A DNA stretch of 64,000 bases from Pyrinomonadaceae bacterium (GTDB lineage Bacteria; Acidobacteriota; Blastocatellia; Pyrinomonadales; Pyrinomonadaceae): NCBI GenBank assembly GCA_030841085.1, contig JAVEDP010000003.1, forward strand, positions 1-64,000, in the 5' to 3' direction. Position 1 is the stretch's first letter. The number at the start of each line of letters is the position of its first letter. The notes under the pieces are model-generated. The model worked only from the letters and a program-made list of their open reading frames with translations, was not told where the DNA came from and ran no database searches. Shown here piece after piece: positions 9,556-38,388 of the stretch. Position numbers and translations under genes: made by a program.

Positions 9556-10668
9556 TCAATCGCTGATGGCAGCGCCCGTTTCCAATTCAGCTTGTCCGAA
9601 AACGTCGTCCGTTATTGGCTCGTCCTCAACCGCATGCTCGACCGCGTCGGCGGAAGTCAGCGAACGCAGTCGTGAAAGGTTGATGTCGCCGCGAATAAAA
9701 TAGAGAAAGCCGAAAATGACTGCCGGACCAAAATCAACCAGATGCATAACGATAGAGATTGCAGCCGCTTTCTCTTTTGTTACGCCCAGGAAAAGTAGAC
9801 CAGCTGCCGTTGCCGCATGAAAAGCGCCCGCCGCACCACCCGGGGTTGGCACCAGCGAACCGACCAACGACCAGCCCAGCACAAAAATCGTTTCCGTAAT
9901 TCCGAACGGCAAACCGAAAGCGCGCAAGACCAGAAGGTTGGCGAACGCGATGCCCAACCAAACCATCGCTGTCCAGCCTACGGTGACGGCAAGCTCACGC
10001 GCATCAACAAGCACCCGCAGCGCTTTTGCGAGTTGTTCCAGAATGCTGACAACAGCCTTAGTTACTGCGGCTGGTACAAAGCGTCGTCTCTCGAGAAACG
10101 GTTTCAGTCCAGCGATTGCCCCTGCTGAATGCTTTCTGAATTTAGTCAGACCAAACACACCGGCGATCACAGCCACTAGCAATACAGCGCCAACGACCCG
10201 AATGCGAAGGAGACTGCCCGCGTCATTTATCGGCGGCCTAAACCATAAAAGGTTCACTGCAAAAAGCACGACGACCGCGATGCAATCGTAGATTCGCTCG
10301 ATCATGATCGTTACAAAAGATGCGGCGGGACGAACACGCGGGTCGCGCATCGGCAAGACCACTGGACGCACAACTTCGCCGGCCCGTCCAAAGAGAAAGA
10401 CTGCCCCAAAACCTACCGTCGTCGCTATGAATAGGTTTCTGAGACCCGCCTTAGCCAGCGGCGCCAATAAAGCTCCCCAACGCGCGGCGCGAAAGACATA
10501 GGCGACGGAAATCATTAGCACGGCCAGCCCCAGCAAATAAGGGTTTGCATTACTGACCGAATGCCGCACTTCCGACCAGTCAAGTTTCCTGCCAAACCAC
10601 CATATAATCGCGATAGCAAGGAGGCAAAGCGCTGTAAATTCGAAATATTTCCGCGTCTTGGATTTCAA
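9556..10668 (-). CDS. Flippase-like membrane protein (lysylphosphatidylglycerol synthase TM-region family, YbhN/AglD-like)
   Basis: 370 residues with about eight hydrophobic segments, the first at residues 10-25. The family signatures RAARWGALLAPL near residue 60, TTVGFGAVFLFGRAGEVVRP and GSLVPTPGGAAGAFHAATAA are present. These match the PF03706 membrane region of MprF and its stand-alone homologues, proposed to move lipids or lipid-linked sugars across the membrane; the synthase domain of MprF is absent. The substrate cannot be told from sequence. The charged C-terminal 35 residues (DEPITDDVFGQAE) are cytoplasmic or disordered. It lies upstream of nrdR on the same strand with a 76-bp gap. 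Confidence 0.85.
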   Translation of the reverse strand: MKSKTRKYFEFTALCLLAIAIIWWFGRKLDWSEVRHSVSNANPYLLGLAVLMISVAYVFRAARWGALLAPLAKAGLRNLFIATTVGFGAVFLFGRAGEVVRPVVLPMRDPRVRPAASFVTIMIERIYDCIAVVVLFAVNLLWFRPPINDAGSLLRIRVVGAVLLVAVIAGVFGLTKFRKHSAGAIAGLKPFLERRRFVPAAVTKAVVSILEQLAKALRVLVDARELAVTVGWTAMVWLGIAFANLLVLRAFGLPFGITETIFVLGWSLVGSLVPTPGGAAGAFHAATAAGLLFLGVTKEKAAAISIVMHLVDFGPAVIFGFLYFIRGDINLSRLRSLTSADAVEHAVEDEPITDDVFGQAELETGAAISD

Positions 10669-30529: not shown

Positions 30530-31029
30530 GCGAACGTGAGCTAGATGGTTAACCTTCCTGACAAATTTCAAAGGTCATTTTTCATCTCCACCGTCGGGGC
30601 TTTGAAACGCTTGCGAAGAGTGTCCACTGCGGGTAGCCAAATCTTCAATCAAAAGGGGGCAGCTCATGCTGCTCCTTTTGCTTACCTCTAGATTTGCAGG
30701 AAACGAAGTCCGATAGCTAACTCTTTGGCGCGTCCCACGACCTTTCTCTTTGCCACAAGCAAAGCCGCTTGAGCATTCGTTGCGGCCAGTTCATCACAAA
30801 CCGATTGGCACAGTCGTTATTCAGAGTCTAATGGTGCGTCTGGCCTGCATCCGTTGGGATTATGTCCTCTCCACTCTTTGATCTATGATCCGGCAGTGGC
30901 GGTACGGTGGCGGTATCATCGCCATAACTTTTTCGTTGCTGCAACGCTCATGGTGCGGGCAGCAACGCGCGTTAAAGATCCTCGAAGACAAAGTGCTATG
31001 GTTTCCCAGTAAACATTTTCCTCAGGCGC
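30530..31029. other. 500-bp intergenic region after VapC
   Basis: Holds the terminator-like hairpin at 30651-30679. A 40-codon minus-strand open frame near 30690-30810 (ending AKELAIGLRFLQI) has a protein-like composition but no start codon, so it may be a gene fragment. Nothing else was recognised before the kinase at 31030. Confidence 0.4.
30651..30679 (+). terminator. Rho-independent terminator after the vapBC pair
   Basis: AAAAGGGGGCAGC, loop TCAT and GCTGCTCCTTTT form a strong stem with A/T-rich ends. It lies 120 bases after vapC. The same stem style (GGGGAGCAG...CTGCTCCCC) occurs after the receptor gene at 41.83 kb. Confidence 0.75.
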
Positions 31030-32226
31030 ATGGTCGAAAACACAAACCAGGACTTTGAGGGCGACGGCCAACACGCGTCTGTCCCGGAATCCCCGAGCTG
31101 GCCGCGCGGGTCGCGGCGTCGCTGGACGCAGTTGGCGCTGATCTGGGCGATCTGGACCTTTGTTGGTCTTGTCTTCACGCTTCAGAGTTACTTCACTTCT
31201 TATAGATCAGAACAGCCGATGTCGCTCTACGATGCGGCTTACTTACAATTCACCTGGTCCTATTTGTGGGCGCTGGCAACTCCGCTCGTGCTTTGGGCCG
31301 CGTCCAAGATTCCAATCGAAAAAAGTAATTGGCCGCGCGCTTTATTGCTTCATCTCCCTATCAGTCTTGGCCTAAGCATGATCCTGACTGCGATTGGCCA
31401 CGTCTTTGTCTGGTTTCACTGGGGTCGAGTGATGGGCCGGCCGTTCTCGCTCGAACGCATGGGCCGCTTCGTCGTCGCCAATTTCAGCGAGGGCATCGGC
31501 ATCTACATGCTGATAGCTTTGACCAGCTATTCGCTTAGCTACTATCGCCGTTATCGCGAATCACAACTGAGAACTTTTCAGCTCGAGGCCCAGCTCTCGC
31601 ATGCTCAACTGCAAGCGTTAAAGATGCAGCTTCATCCTCATTTTCTTTTTAACACGCTCCACTCAATCTCTGCTTTACTCAATAAGGATCCGGAAACCGC
31701 GCGCAGAATGATCACGCGCTTGGGAGATTTCTTGCGCCTCACTCTGGAAAATTCCGGCTCGCAGGAAGTCACGCTCGAACAGGAGATGACCTTTCTCCGC
31801 TGCTACCTGGAAATCGAACGCATACGTTTTCAGGATCGTTTGGTTACGCGCCTCGACGTATCTGAACAGACACTTGATGCGAAGGTGCCCAACCTCATCC
31901 TCCAGCCCATCGTTGAGAATGCAATCCGCCATGGAATCGCACCTCGCTCCACTGCCGGGCTCATCGAAATAGATGCGGAACGCCGAAACAGCACACTTCG
32001 TATTAAAGTCCGGGACAACGGCCCCGGCCTTCCCGGTCATCGGACATCCGAGAATATGTTCAAGAAGGGTCTGGGCCTGGCTAATACAGAAAAGCGGCTG
32101 GAACAGTTATACGGCGCAGCACATCTCTTCGACCTAAGCGACCACCCCGAGGGCGGGTTGCTGGTAACACTGGAAATACCTTTTCATAAAGATGGCTCTG
32201 CCGCCGGCAGCACCGAAGTCGTTTGA
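31030..32226 (+). CDS. LytS/YehU-type sensor histidine kinase
   Basis: 398 residues. Four membrane helices lie between residues 30 and 175 (LIWAIWTFVGLVFTLQSYF, FTWSYLWALATPLVLWA, LLHLPISLGLSMILTAIG, GIGIYMLIALTSYSLSYY). The kinase core is the PF06580 type: QALKMQLHPHFLFNTLHSIS with H204 as phosphoacceptor, then NLILQPIVENAIRHGI (N-box) and VRDNGPGLPG, GLGLANTEKRL in the ATPase. The partner is the LytTR regulator 120 bases downstream on the same strand. No external sensor domain exists beyond the membrane helices, so the signal is likely membrane-related. Confidence 0.93.
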   Translation: MVENTNQDFEGDGQHASVPESPSWPRGSRRRWTQLALIWAIWTFVGLVFTLQSYFTSYRSEQPMSLYDAAYLQFTWSYLWALATPLVLWAASKIPIEKSNWPRALLLHLPISLGLSMILTAIGHVFVWFHWGRVMGRPFSLERMGRFVVANFSEGIGIYMLIALTSYSLSYYRRYRESQLRTFQLEAQLSHAQLQALKMQLHPHFLFNTLHSISALLNKDPETARRMITRLGDFLRLTLENSGSQEVTLEQEMTFLRCYLEIERIRFQDRLVTRLDVSEQTLDAKVPNLILQPIVENAIRHGIAPRSTAGLIEIDAERRNSTLRIKVRDNGPGLPGHRTSENMFKKGLGLANTEKRLEQLYGAAHLFDLSDHPEGGLLVTLEIPFHKDGSAAGSTEVV

Positions 32227-32349: not shown

Positions 32350-33129
32350 ATGACGAACTCTCCCATGATTCGTGTTTTGTTGGTGGACGATGAACCGCTG
32401 GCTCGCGCGATGCTGCGCGAAATGCTGCAAAGCGATCCCCAGGTAACCATCGTCGGCGAGTCGGTTAACGGCGTTGAGGCGTTGGCCGCCATTCGCGAGC
32501 ATTCCCCGGATCTGCTGTTCCTCGATGTGCAGATGCCCGAATTGGGCGGCTTTGAAGTGCTTTCCGCGCTCGAGAAAAACGAGCTACCAAATATTATTTT
32601 TGTAACTGCTTACGACCAGTATGCGGTGCGCGCGTTTGAAGTGAACGCTCTCGACTATCTATTAAAGCCGTTCGATCAGGAGCGCTTTGATGCCGCCTGG
32701 CAACGCGCCAAAGGCCACATTTTGCAGCAACGAAATGGCGGCGTGGACCAGCGCATTCTGGCATTGCTCCAGGAATTGAAAGCCGGCAACAACTATTTGG
32801 AACGGTTGGTGATCAAGGCAGCAGGTCGAATCTATTTTCTGGAAGCGGGCGAAATTGATTGGATCGAAGCCGAAGGCAACTATGTCTCAGTGCATAGTAA
32901 AAAGAAATCCCACTTGTTGCGCGAAACCATCAGCAGTTTGGAAGCGCAGCTTGATCCCAAAAAGTTTGTGCGCATTCATCGCTCTTCAATCGTTCGACTG
33001 GATCGAATTCAGGAGTTACAGCCCTGGTTTCACGGCGAGTACCGCATCATCCTGAACGACGGCACTCAACTAATGCTTTCCCGGAACCACAGAGACAAGC
33101 TGCAGGAAGCTCTCGGCAAACTTCCCTGA
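32350..33129 (+). CDS. LytTR-family response regulator
   Basis: 259 residues. The receiver domain starts IRVLLVDDEPLARAMLREML and carries the phosphorylatable D59 in LLFLDVQMPELGG, the T/A switch VTAYDQYAVRAFEV and K in YLLKPFD. The LytTR DNA-binding domain spans about residues 150-255 (IDWIEAEGNYVSVHSKKKSH, FVRIHRSSIVRLDRIQEL, MLSRNHRDKL). LytTR proteins bind direct repeats about 21 bases apart in DNA. Such repeats lie 30 bases downstream of this gene and again at 34.04 kb. It forms a two-component system with the preceding kinase. Confidence 0.95.
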   Translation: MTNSPMIRVLLVDDEPLARAMLREMLQSDPQVTIVGESVNGVEALAAIREHSPDLLFLDVQMPELGGFEVLSALEKNELPNIIFVTAYDQYAVRAFEVNALDYLLKPFDQERFDAAWQRAKGHILQQRNGGVDQRILALLQELKAGNNYLERLVIKAAGRIYFLEAGEIDWIEAEGNYVSVHSKKKSHLLRETISSLEAQLDPKKFVRIHRSSIVRLDRIQELQPWFHGEYRIILNDGTQLMLSRNHRDKLQEALGKLP

Positions 33130-33146: not shown

Positions 33147-33187
33147 AAAGCCCGCTAGTCACAAGCGAATGCCTGTCCGTCACAAAA
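33147..33187 (+). promoter_or_regulatory. Candidate LytTR operator, copy 1 (GTCACA direct repeat, 21-bp period)
   Basis: GTCACA occurs at 33158-33163 and 33179-33184, exactly 21 bases apart, inside a 41-base block shared with 34026-34066 (about 32 identities). A reversed copy (TGTGAC) is at 33198. It lies upstream of the Fis-type gene and directly after the LytTR gene, which makes autoregulation or control of the next gene plausible. Confidence 0.5.
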
Positions 33188-33265
33188 CGGAGGCAACTGT
33201 GACAGCAGCCCTCTATAAGTTGTCGCGTCGAACTTATTGTTTGGAACAGCTGTCAGGAGGATGTT

Positions 33266-33658
33266 ATGAGCTCAGTCTCAAGTTGGAGAAATGACCGGCT
33301 GGAATTGTTACCGCCAAACGGCGACAGCGAACTTAATTCTTCGCGACATAAAATTACGACGGTCAAACAATTGGCCATCAGGTTGCTGCGGGAAGTTCAA
33401 GCTATTCGCGAAGTCGAAGTCAGAAGTCTTGGCGACGGTGTCGATTTTTATGAAGAAGTTAGTCGCTTTGAAATGGACCTCATCAAATGTGCCCTGTTGC
33501 AAACGGCCGGTCATCAAAGACAGGCAGCGCGGCTGCTGAAATTGAAGGTAACCACCCTCAATTCCAAGATTAAGCATTACAACATTGGTCTTAATGCTTT
33601 CGCGGGCGATGCTTCGTCGGTTGAAACATCAACCGAATCGGGCACGCAGCCGTCGTAA
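33266..33658 (+). CDS. Fis-family helix-turn-helix DNA-binding protein
   Basis: 130 residues from an ATG with AGGAGG upstream. The C-terminal half is a Fis/NtrC-type HTH_8: YEEVSRFEMDLIKCALLQTA, GHQRQAARLLKLKVTTLNSK and IKHYNI. The N-terminal 60 residues (HKITTVKQLAIRLLREVQAI) contain a helix of unknown role, and the last 20 are disordered. No receiver or AAA+ domain is present, so it is a stand-alone DNA-binding protein, perhaps a nucleoid-type or antagonist factor. The direct repeats at 33147-33187 lie within its promoter region, so the LytTR regulator may control it. Confidence 0.85.
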   Translation: MSSVSSWRNDRLELLPPNGDSELNSSRHKITTVKQLAIRLLREVQAIREVEVRSLGDGVDFYEEVSRFEMDLIKCALLQTAGHQRQAARLLKLKVTTLNSKIKHYNIGLNAFAGDASSVETSTESGTQPS

Positions 33659-33686
33659 CTTGAAAGCAGCTCAGCCACGAGAGTTT

Positions 33687-33722
33687 GGCACCCAGTCTTC
33701 ATAGGCCGGGTGCTTTTTCTTT
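33687..33722 (+). terminator. Terminator of the Fis-type gene
   Basis: GCACCC (33688-33693) and GGGTGC (33708-33713) pair around a 14-base loop and are followed by TTTTTCTTT. Confidence 0.7.
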
Positions 33723-34254
33723 ATATACCCTCGACCACTGCAAGCACCTTTACACGAGAATTCATTTCCGATAAGAGGCGACCAGAGAGCGTCTGCGGGC
33801 CCCAATCCTCCATTGTGGTGGTCGGCGAATACAGAACCGGAAGCGGATTCATTTCGCCGCCTCTTTTTTTTTGCAACTCACCCGGCTTATCGCAAACAAA
33901 CGAAGCTCCCACCCGTTACCGCAGGCCGTAATGACCTCATTGCGCGTGGTGAATTTTCGATTTGTAGTGCATAGCCTCGCCCATCAATTCACAACCCGAG
34001 CGAGTTCGGCGAACTGCTGAAGGCTTAAGCCCACTAGTCACACGTTCCTGCCCATCCGTCACAAAGGCCAACCCACCCTCGCGACTGAAGCGTATAACCG
34101 CTCACGACGAACTCATGCAGTTCGAAAAGCCGCGACCAACACAGTCGCCTCTTTTCACAGAGCTTCATCGCGATTGCCCACATCAAGCGCTCGGCCTCGG
34201 CGAGCCAGGAACTACACAGTCGATATTCTGCGATTGCGCCTGGAGGTGTTTGCA
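33723..34254. other. Intergenic region before the HExxH protein
   Basis: About 530 bases with no convincing gene: a 73-codon plus-strand and a 63-codon minus-strand ORF show no recognisable domain. The second GTCACA repeat lies at 34026-34066. Confidence 0.45.
34026..34066 (+). promoter_or_regulatory. Candidate LytTR operator, copy 2 (GTCACA direct repeat, 21-bp period)
   Basis: GTCACA at 34037-34042 and 34058-34063, again 21 bases apart, in a block sharing CTAGTCACA and TCCGTCACAAA with copy 1. It lies about 190 bases upstream of the secreted HExxH protein. Confidence 0.5.
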
Positions 34255-34935
34255 ATGAAGGTACGCGAAATTCTAATGGGCGCGGCTCTGTTGTCGCTCG
34301 CGCTAAACACGATAGCGGAGAATCCCTTGCCGCTGATGGCCGACGTTGAAATCTTTCCGCTCGCAACCAATCGAACTCTCGAGCCTTCCGCTTTGCCCCT
34401 CGTGCTTGAAGACGACGTATTCAGCTCGGCCTACTACGACACGCTGGCGATCCTGGGCACAGAAAATCGCTGCAGTAAGTTCTTCGGTGGTCCTCCAACC
34501 GTTGATATTTTCAATCAAATAATTGCAAAGATGCGGAAAGACTATTTCTCAGCCAACGTTGGCATCCGCATGTCGGGCACGACTGTCACCGTTCACGACT
34601 TCCAAACAAATAAAGCGTACCGCTTGTTTGAGAAAGTGATTATTAACGGCAACGGACCATTTTACCGAAGTAGATACCCCGACTCCGCGTCTTTACCAGG
34701 CATCGGCACTTATGGACCAGACACCCGGGAAGCCCGCGTGTTAATGCTGTTGCATGAGTTGGGCCACACCATCAAGTCGGACGACGGCAAGTGGCTACTG
34801 CCTGATGATGGCGGTGACGATTCACTAAGCCGGCGCAACTCGATGAAGATCGAAAAGGTTTGCGGAGAAGAGATTTCCAACCGCAGCCGAGTTGAAGGTA
34901 AAACTGAAGAGACGGCGAAGGCCAGTCCGCTATAG
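34255..34935 (+). CDS. Exported protein with an HExxH zinc-protease-like motif
   Basis: 226 residues from the ATG at 34255, preceded by GGAGG; the reading frame extends upstream to 34174 without a ribosome site. A signal peptide (MKVREILMGAALLSLALNTI then AE) is likely. The motif LHELGHTIK near residue 170 is the HExxH zinc-binding consensus; the third ligand is not obvious, possibly a glutamate or histidine in the following 40 residues. A conserved-looking segment NRCSKFFGGPPTVDIFNQII lies earlier. It may be a lineage-restricted metalloprotease, but activity is inferred from one motif. A LytTR-like operator lies upstream. Confidence 0.65.
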   Translation: MKVREILMGAALLSLALNTIAENPLPLMADVEIFPLATNRTLEPSALPLVLEDDVFSSAYYDTLAILGTENRCSKFFGGPPTVDIFNQIIAKMRKDYFSANVGIRMSGTTVTVHDFQTNKAYRLFEKVIINGNGPFYRSRYPDSASLPGIGTYGPDTREARVLMLLHELGHTIKSDDGKWLLPDDGGDDSLSRRNSMKIEKVCGEEISNRSRVEGKTEETAKASPL

Positions 34936-36673: not shown

Positions 36674-37717
36674 TCAGAATACTTTTTGGTGCAAGCCGGC
36701 AGCGTCACCCCAAAAGACATTCCCCGACGGTGTGACAGTCACGCCGAAGGCCCCGCCGCCGATTAACATCGACGAGTTCAAGCCAGGGAACACTAACCGC
36801 AGCCGACATGAATCGCCGCTGCATACCGTCCACGCCTGGGAACCACCAGCCGCAGGTCCCTTCGTCGAAATCGAACTCACGATTCCGCTGGGTCCCGGCA
36901 GGGTTATGGTCACACCCGCGAGCCGCAAGTGAAGGAGGCCGCTGTCGGAACCCTGGTCTCCCCAGTAAGTACCATTGGACACGGCGTGGAGCGCTGTAAC
37001 ACGGTTCGCTGCAACGACGATTGTCCTGGATTCAGGACTGGTGTTACTGCCGCTCGTTGGCACGAAGCGAATGTTCTCAAATGAGGCGTAGACGATGCGG
37101 CTCCCATTCTGTAGTTCGATGCCTGCGGTAGGGGTGTTGGGATGCACCGGGTCGAGCTTGACGATGGCGCCGCCTCGGATTGGCATTTTCCGTATCGCTG
37201 AGCCGTCCTGCCAGTAGAGATTCGCGCCGTCCGTAACGAGATTGCGATGGCTGTTTTCAATGTCCATTTCATCCCCTATGTTCGCGAGAACGGTAGCTGT
37301 TCCTCCCGTCAAGGGGACGCGCTTGATCGTAACGCCCGTAAAGTTCTTTGGTGTCTCCGCGAAGAAGTACCCAAAAAATACGCCGTCAACCTTCGCAAAG
37401 ACGATGTCGCCAAATTGCGCTCCCTGCTCCCAGTACAGGACGGTTTCCTGTCCGGGGATTGAGGTCTGACTTGTCCTCCAGACGGTGGCGCCAGCGGCGT
37501 CGTGTGACGTGAAATACAAGTTGCCTTCTGAAAGGATCAGGCCATCGGGTTTCCGAAACGAGACAAATGTGTCCTGAGCGGGTGCAGGCAAAACTTCATT
37601 TGAAAGTGAGTGAACATCCAAGATCGTTTTCCACTCGCCGTTAATCTGGCTGTAACTGGTTTGGACCATGCCCGCGGCCGCCCATAACAAAACCACGAAT
37701 CGGGTAATCTGGGACAT
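36674..37717 (-). CDS. Secreted beta-propeller-like protein
   Basis: 347 residues with GGAGGAAAT before the ATG. A signal peptide (MSQITRFVVLLWAAAGMVQT then SYSQ) is present. The mature protein has repeating motifs such as NLYFTSHDAAGATVWR, NLYWQDGSAIRKMPIRGG and NVFWGDAAGLHQKVF, in which N/G-x-(L/V)-(Y/F)-W-x-D precedes a short I-x-x-(M/V)-P strand. This is typical of beta-propeller repeats (DUF5050/low-density-lipoprotein YWTD-like). Such proteins bind ligands or other proteins outside the cell. Function unknown. Confidence 0.7.
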   Translation of the reverse strand: MSQITRFVVLLWAAAGMVQTSYSQINGEWKTILDVHSLSNEVLPAPAQDTFVSFRKPDGLILSEGNLYFTSHDAAGATVWRTSQTSIPGQETVLYWEQGAQFGDIVFAKVDGVFFGYFFAETPKNFTGVTIKRVPLTGGTATVLANIGDEMDIENSHRNLVTDGANLYWQDGSAIRKMPIRGGAIVKLDPVHPNTPTAGIELQNGSRIVYASFENIRFVPTSGSNTSPESRTIVVAANRVTALHAVSNGTYWGDQGSDSGLLHLRLAGVTITLPGPSGIVSSISTKGPAAGGSQAWTVCSGDSCRLRLVFPGLNSSMLIGGGAFGVTVTPSGNVFWGDAAGLHQKVF

Positions 37718-38388
37718 AGCAATTTCCTCCGTAATGTTTAGGAAACTAAGCGTAACAACTTTGAACCCGCCATGAATCCACCCGCCACTGTCAGGTAGTA
37801 CTGACCAGTGGCCACGCGCCCCAGGACATTGACGATTGATTCAAGAAATCTGGCTGAGTCGGCTGGTTGTTCAGAGGACAACACGTGAGAATCAGCCAAT
37901 AGACTTTAATGCAAAAAAGAGCTTGTAAGGTCGAGTGGAAAATACAATAGGGCTGCGGGAAGAGTCAACGCTTTCCAGGTCGCACTCCAAAAAACCCCTC
38001 CAAAAATCCGGAGACTTTTGCCAGGCGTAGGTTACCAAACACACTTGCGCATTCAACGCCTGCAACAAATTTTGACGCGAATCCAATTTTCGCAATCTGC
38101 GTTTCTGAATGCCACGCGACGAGTTGGCCCAGGCGAGTGACAAGCCGGCCCATGGACCTTGCGAGACAAAAGGCACGCGCGTTGCACTCCACAAACTGCA
38201 TCGGCGAGAGGCTGATTAGCCGGTCATCCGAATAGTCGGAGCCCAAACGTCTCCCACTTGTACCTCGCCGGCTAAGAATCGTTAATCCAGAAGCTGCCCG
38301 GTCGTTTGCTGGTTCCCTTCTTCCCGGAACTATCAGCTCCAAAAAACGGTGTGCTTCGTTTCCCGGAAAGTTACGAAAGGAAATGATC
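37718..38388. other. Intergenic region upstream of the Oar-like receptor
   Basis: About 670 bases. The dyad CACTGTCAGGTAGTACTGAC (37790 onward, with CAGTG) is notable and shares GGTAGTACTGACC with 35052. Minus-strand ORFs at 37892-38194 and 37965-38597 show no domain; the latter overlaps the receptor gene and was rejected. No promoter could be assigned confidently. Confidence 0.45.

Follow-up and report, generated by a model that had tools for sequence, protein, structure and literature searches.

Response regulators that carry a LytTR DNA-binding domain recognize paired repeats of 9 to 11 nucleotides (nt) separated by spacers of 11 to 13 nt, with no common consensus (PMC4847170), and a period of 21 bp is known for such sites (PMC4847170, PMC2766830). 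Most LytTR regulators are described as binding upstream of the -35 element and activating transcription (PMC11347149). In Staphylococcus aureus, the sites of AgrA at P2 and P3 are direct repeats that lie directly upstream of the promoter and are centered near -60 (PMC4227749). SilA of the streptococci uses a pair of 10-bp direct repeats separated by 11 bp, and therefore a 21-bp period; a search for its motif suggested that the unit is autonomous, and the activator is a quorum-sensing peptide (PMC2766830). The LytS/LytTR pairs YpdA/YpdB and YehU/YehT of Escherichia coli have very few targets, yhjX being the sole direct target of YpdB (PMC4847170), while YehT regulates yjiY (PMC3875573). None of the titles and abstract openings found in the literature dealt with a LytTR operator from Acidobacteriota. 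The operator predicted here is new in itself and belongs to a kind that is already known.

The window, that is, the whole 64-kb stretch of Pyrinomonadaceae DNA that was analyzed, contains a kinase gene, a LytTR regulator gene, a first repeat block, a gene for a small HTH_8 (Fis-type) protein, a second repeat block, and a gene for an HExxH protein, in this order and all on the + strand. The sensor histidine kinase (31030 to 32226) is of the LytS/AlgZ kind, with Pfam matches to His_kinase (PF06580; 6.6e-28) and HATPase_c (8.8e-11) and an N-terminal half that is hydrophobic by eye, and its gene adjoins that of the regulator, as is characteristic of a LytS/AlgZ-type partner. The response regulator (32350 to 33129) combines a receiver domain (Response_reg; 2.8e-26, 92.3 bits) with a LytTR DNA-binding domain (1.2e-27, 96.4 bits), both over the Pfam cut-offs. 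Its top NCBIfam match is BtsR, at 191.1 bits and under the cut-off of 246; YehU/YehT is also called BtsSR. Compared with the sequences in the PDB, the LytTR domain had a single weak relative, 3d6w, and the named regulator loci closest to that of the window come from Pyrinomonadaceae and other Acidobacteria metagenome-assembled genomes. The translation contains FVRIHRS, a match to FhRhHRS, the most conserved motif of the LytTR domain and one that is also described for AgrA (PMC4227749). A domain search of the genome (98.88% complete) found exactly one LytTR domain, that of this regulator.

Block 1 (33147 to 33187, + strand) contains GTCACA at 33158 to 33163 and 33179 to 33184, and block 2 (34026 to 34066, + strand) contains it at 34037 to 34042 and 34058 to 34063, in each case with 15 nt between the two copies, so that both blocks consist of direct repeats with a period of 21, the pattern of LytTR operators and the same period as in SilA. 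The two half-sites of block 1 are AAGCCCGCTAGTCACA and ATGCCTGTCCGTCACA, 21 bp apart, and the half-site consensus is approximately GCC-N5-GTCACA, repeated in tandem at 21 bp. The half-site of AgrA has a different sequence, and no peptide-precursor gene was recognized among the genes described here. The YpdB repeat, GGCATTTCAT (PMC4847170), is likewise unlike the half-site found here. The first-pass annotation had located and arranged the two blocks correctly, while its figure of about 32 shared positions becomes 31 of 41 by our count. Its LytTR gene ending shortly before block 1 is also borne out, with 17 bases rather than 20 between the stop codon, which ends at 33129, and the block. Less apt is its description of the blocks as flanking the two-component system, because both come after that system, one on each side of the HTH_8 gene; the term would hold only if a weak site at 30761 to 30801, discussed below, were counted.

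Each block precedes one gene, as had been proposed, block 1 the HTH_8 gene (33266 to 33658; 130 amino acids, stand-alone, Pfam HTH_8 3.5e-07, 19-sequence alignment) and block 2 the HExxH gene (34255 to 34935; 226 amino acids from ATG), and a putative -10 hexamer stands between block and gene in both cases. These hexamers, TATAAG (33214 to 33219, + strand) and TATAAC (34093 to 34098, + strand), are separated by 29 nt from the final A of the second GTCACA in their respective blocks, a distance that places the predicted operators just upstream of the -35 region. If the -10 hexamer is set at -12 to -7, arithmetic in this inferred promoter frame puts the end of the second TCACA at about -42 and the center of the pair of 16-nt half-sites near -60, as at the AgrA promoters. 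A sigma-70 promoter scan found no promoter-like pair at the promoter of either block, and an Rfam search gave no RNA family match.

We consider it very probable, on sequence evidence, that both blocks serve as operators for the neighboring kinase-activated LytTR regulator, which would bind upstream of the -35 element and activate a small regulon. Given the domain pair, the kinase would phosphorylate the regulator, and two LytTR domains would then bind both half-sites, roughly from -78 to -42, and on the same face of the helix because the half-sites are 21 bp apart. Bound just upstream of a poor -35 element and 29 nt before the -10 hexamer, the regulator would recruit RNA polymerase and so activate transcription, and the position of the sites together with the poor -35 fits activation by recruitment. 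The LytTR regulator CoxC provides a precedent for the opposite effect, since it represses from an operator that overlaps the -35 element (PMC11347149), and operators of this type could repress here if the regulator blocked the promoters until a signal relieved the block; with a second repeat that ends at about -42, upstream of the -35 element, and with a -35 so poor that the promoter scan detected no pair, we regard repression as unlikely. Under activation, the window genome would have as targets the HTH_8 gene, the gene for the secreted HExxH protein, and probably also the operon of kinase and regulator. In relatives, a secreted esterase would be added to these or, in one other family, a permease for amino acids.

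The exact pattern GTCACA-N15-GTCACA has two matches in the 4,688,395-base (4.69-Mb) genome, both of them the blocks, and none in the reversed control, and a 38-position extended consensus with at most 3 mismatches returns the same two blocks and again nothing in the reversed control. The genome scan that the first-pass annotation had called for, with a motif scattered at random as the outcome that would count against it, did not give that outcome, with two matches against zero. As a test of enrichment the bare pattern is too short for relatives, since over 97 genomes (the own genome included) it has 55 matches against 29 in the reversed control, about a twofold excess. Eight of these 55 exact matches are of another kind and lie in a single genome, G048 (contigs C91, C105, C116, C127, and C132), some in tandem at 21 nt and with inner letters in common; they look like in-frame 7-codon or tandem repeats. 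The extended motif occurs at 17 places in 14 of the 97 genomes, against 6 in the reversed control, and 11 of the 17 places adjoin homologues of the kinase, the regulator, the HTH_8 protein, or the HExxH protein. These 11 sites (2 from the window and 9 from relatives) served as the training set for a matrix. The other places (L036, L042, L043, L044, L045, and L047), which have no such homologues alongside and equal the control in number (6), were dropped; one of them, L036, later received a matrix score of 29.1 and may be a true unlinked site. A looser motif gave 24 matches against 1 in the reversed control across nine chosen genomes.

The matrix has 41 columns and leaves out the spacer and the -10 hexamer; blocks 1 and 2, both training sites, score 50.4 and 41.2. 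Among distinct matrix windows, 43 score above 16 against none in the reversed control, and 48 score above 14 against 2, at loci that were partly fetched by the motif itself, a circularity from which the regulator-anchored test and four protein-fetched esterase loci, described below, are free. Of the 11 training sites, once aligned, 8 have TATAA plus one base at the 29-nt offset and 1 has TATAGC, with TAAGAT in G083 and CTAAAC in L048. Across the 37 non-training matrix windows above 14, the -10 score is 0.73 at 29 nt, compared with a mean of -4.32 (standard deviation, 0.93) over offsets of 5 to 54. The longer motif, composed of tandem half-sites and a -10 hexamer at 29 nt, is thus far above chance. 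Two similar 39-nt copies only 879 bp apart might also be taken for copies of a repeat element or for duplicated DNA with no regulatory role, but there is no further copy in the genome, the ungapped similarity stops at the end of the operator, and the same motif with the same -10 spacing precedes different genes in relatives, so that we judge such an origin extremely improbable. Because relatives have the same sites with the same promoter spacing and the same kinds of gene downstream, the blocks are very probably binding sites of the regulator.

For the regulator-anchored test, 110 loci (30 plus 80) were fetched by similarity to the regulator protein and yielded 101 distinct regulator genes, and a nearby site was defined as a matrix score above 11 at a distance of no more than 1.5 kb from the gene. 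Such a site was found with all 7 regulators of at least 70% identity to that of the window, with 17 of 22 at 60 to 70% (15 of them above 14), with 1 of 16 at 55 to 60%, and with none of 56 below; training sites account for all seven of the first group and for one of the 22 (L069). Overall, 24 of 29 orthologues at 60% identity or more have a nearby site, compared with 1 of 72 more distant regulators and 0 of 101 in the reversed control. No site above 11 was found within 1.5 kb of the remaining 5 of the 29. On a quick maximum-likelihood tree of the regulators, the label "site" needs 6 changes, compared with 22.4 in shuffles, and with midpoint rooting the common ancestor of the 25 site-bearing regulators holds 34 tips. 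RTCMCA core pairs were also counted in the DNA after the regulator genes. For the 29 genes at 60% identity or more, 19 pairs stand at lag 21, 3 at lag 42, and one each at four other lags, with no pairs in the reversed control for these genes; the 72 more distant genes have a single pair at each of the lags 11, 21, and 41.

The small HTH_8 protein is a second candidate reader of the sites. Its gene lies between the two blocks, and many of the sites in relatives precede an HTH_8 homologue, so that it might bind the sites, regulate itself, and control the HExxH gene. However, 96 of the 97 genomes have HTH_8 relatives, whereas the motif largely follows a single regulator clade; direct repeats at 21 bp are typical of LytTR proteins and speak against an HTH_8 binder; and in G083 and G096 the site stands after the regulator gene and before an amino-acid permease gene, the best HTH_8 match listed for these genomes being in a long frame (497 and 480 amino acids, respectively) rather than a stand-alone protein. 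Control by the HTH_8 protein is therefore very unlikely. The reading originally offered, of LytTR operators and a small regulon, is favored instead, because the motif tracks the orthologues of the regulator, has distant targets in relatives, repeats at 21 bp, and occurs in a genome where this was the sole LytTR protein found. With one regulator and two strong sites, the window genome is a simple case, and the predictions of operator, promoter geometry, and targets are specific enough to be tested directly. Among relatives, one LytTR domain was found in G014 (95% complete), one in G009 (75%), and five in G083. No LytTR domain was found in G008 (98% complete) or G001 (67%), both of which have a site before the esterase gene (L225 and L223, respectively), and this counts against the favored reading; the site may outlive the regulator there, another protein may read it, or the regulator gene may be missing from the assembly.

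Sites stand before genes for the HTH_8 protein, for the HExxH protein, and for the kinase itself; in G083, G072, and G096, there is one before an amino-acid permease gene. The permease belongs to Pfam AA_permease_2, as tested on the G083 gene, with those of G072 and G096 assigned by a like N terminus, and it appears as a target in family f6 only. HExxH genes number 18 in 15 of the 97 genomes, and 13 of the 18 have a site upstream, 11 with scores above 14 and two with 13.4 and 13.6; training sites make up 6 of these 13. In G014 (contig C4), G043, and G028, the HExxH site has no kinase, regulator, or HTH_8 gene in its 1.5-kb flanks, which places these targets away from the two-component system. 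HExxH genes for which no site was found are L205 and L211, with full upstream DNA, L209 and L214, with about 137 and 275 bases of it, and L221, which is cut by the end of its contig, so that its upstream DNA gives no valid score (5 of 18).

Relatives have a further predicted target, a secreted esterase (Pfam Esterase, 3e-26) that also contains TPR-like repeats. Sites, none of them in the training set, precede 8 of 8 esterase orthologues of at least 70% identity and 0 of 22 weaker ones examined among 32 matches listed; the loci in G006, G012, G014, and G043 were found via the motif, and those in G001, G003, G004, and G008 via the protein only. The window genome has no esterase gene of that type at E values of 1e-40 or below. 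Three further candidate targets came up once each: a YceI protein, a PadR regulator together with a permease, and a protein whose match to 3-keto-disaccharide hydrolase is below threshold. The few targets recall the E. coli pairs, although the targets of YpdB and YehT are membrane or transport proteins, and those found here are mainly secreted proteins and the HTH_8 protein.

A candidate third operator, degenerate in that it keeps the GCC/GCC period of 21 and has a single TCACA, lies upstream of the kinase gene (30761 to 30801, + strand). Its score of 17.7 is the third best of the window, where the next best elsewhere is 13.8 and the maximum in the reversed control is 7.6. A similar element, with GCC at a period of 21 and one TCACA, is present in L084, L086, and L100, and a fuller site stands before the kinase gene in other relatives. 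Autoregulation of the kinase-regulator operon is therefore likely, on weaker evidence than that for blocks 1 and 2. Lower matrix scores elsewhere in the window, at 10354 to 10394 (+ strand; 13.8), 38112 to 38152 (- strand; 13.5), and 37652 to 37692 (+ strand; 13.3), are probably due to chance; the latter two lie near a 347-amino-acid frame (36674 to 37717) and a large frame at 38383.

The HExxH protein has a signal-like start, as judged by eye, and H167, E168, and H171 of its HELGH motif, which is invariant in the alignment, are conserved in 11 of 11 aligned homologues. There was no Pfam or NCBIfam match, and a structural model (mean pLDDT, 73.6) gave no PDB fold match at E values of 0.001 or below. 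We describe it as a putative secreted zinc metallopeptidase outside the named families. Kinase, LytTR regulator, HTH_8 protein, and HExxH protein might together form a self-contained extracellular sensing loop, in which a protease under control of the regulator would release or destroy a peptide sensed by the kinase, with the HTH_8 protein tuning the response. We think this quite unlikely; were it true, the loop would be an unrecognized peptide-signaling module of Acidobacteriota.

Regulators paralogous to that of the window were covered by a hand-chosen set of 20 downstream regions (50 to 55% identity). By the pattern [CT][AG]TCAC, repeats at lags of 20 to 21 or 41 were found in 5 of the 20 (G034, G054, G022, G028, and G032), and no such repeats were found in the other 15; the controls (reversed and opposite strand) gave lag 14 twice, lag 17 once, and lag 21 once, with lags 14 and 21 stemming from L306, read on the opposite strand. 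In each of the five regions, a count by eye also puts a hexamer, TANNNT or TTAAAT, at 28 nt from the block's last TCACA. The layout may thus be common to a wider LytTR group whose half-sites have diverged, and because some paralogous systems have variant repeats in a similar layout, the group could serve the study of how LytTR specificity diverges. A small HTH_8 gene also follows paralogous LytTR regulators in G022 (contig C61), G025 (C60), G028 (C534), G034 (C17), G049 (C139), and G054 (C30), and the combination of regulator and HTH_8 protein seems to recur as a module within this family.
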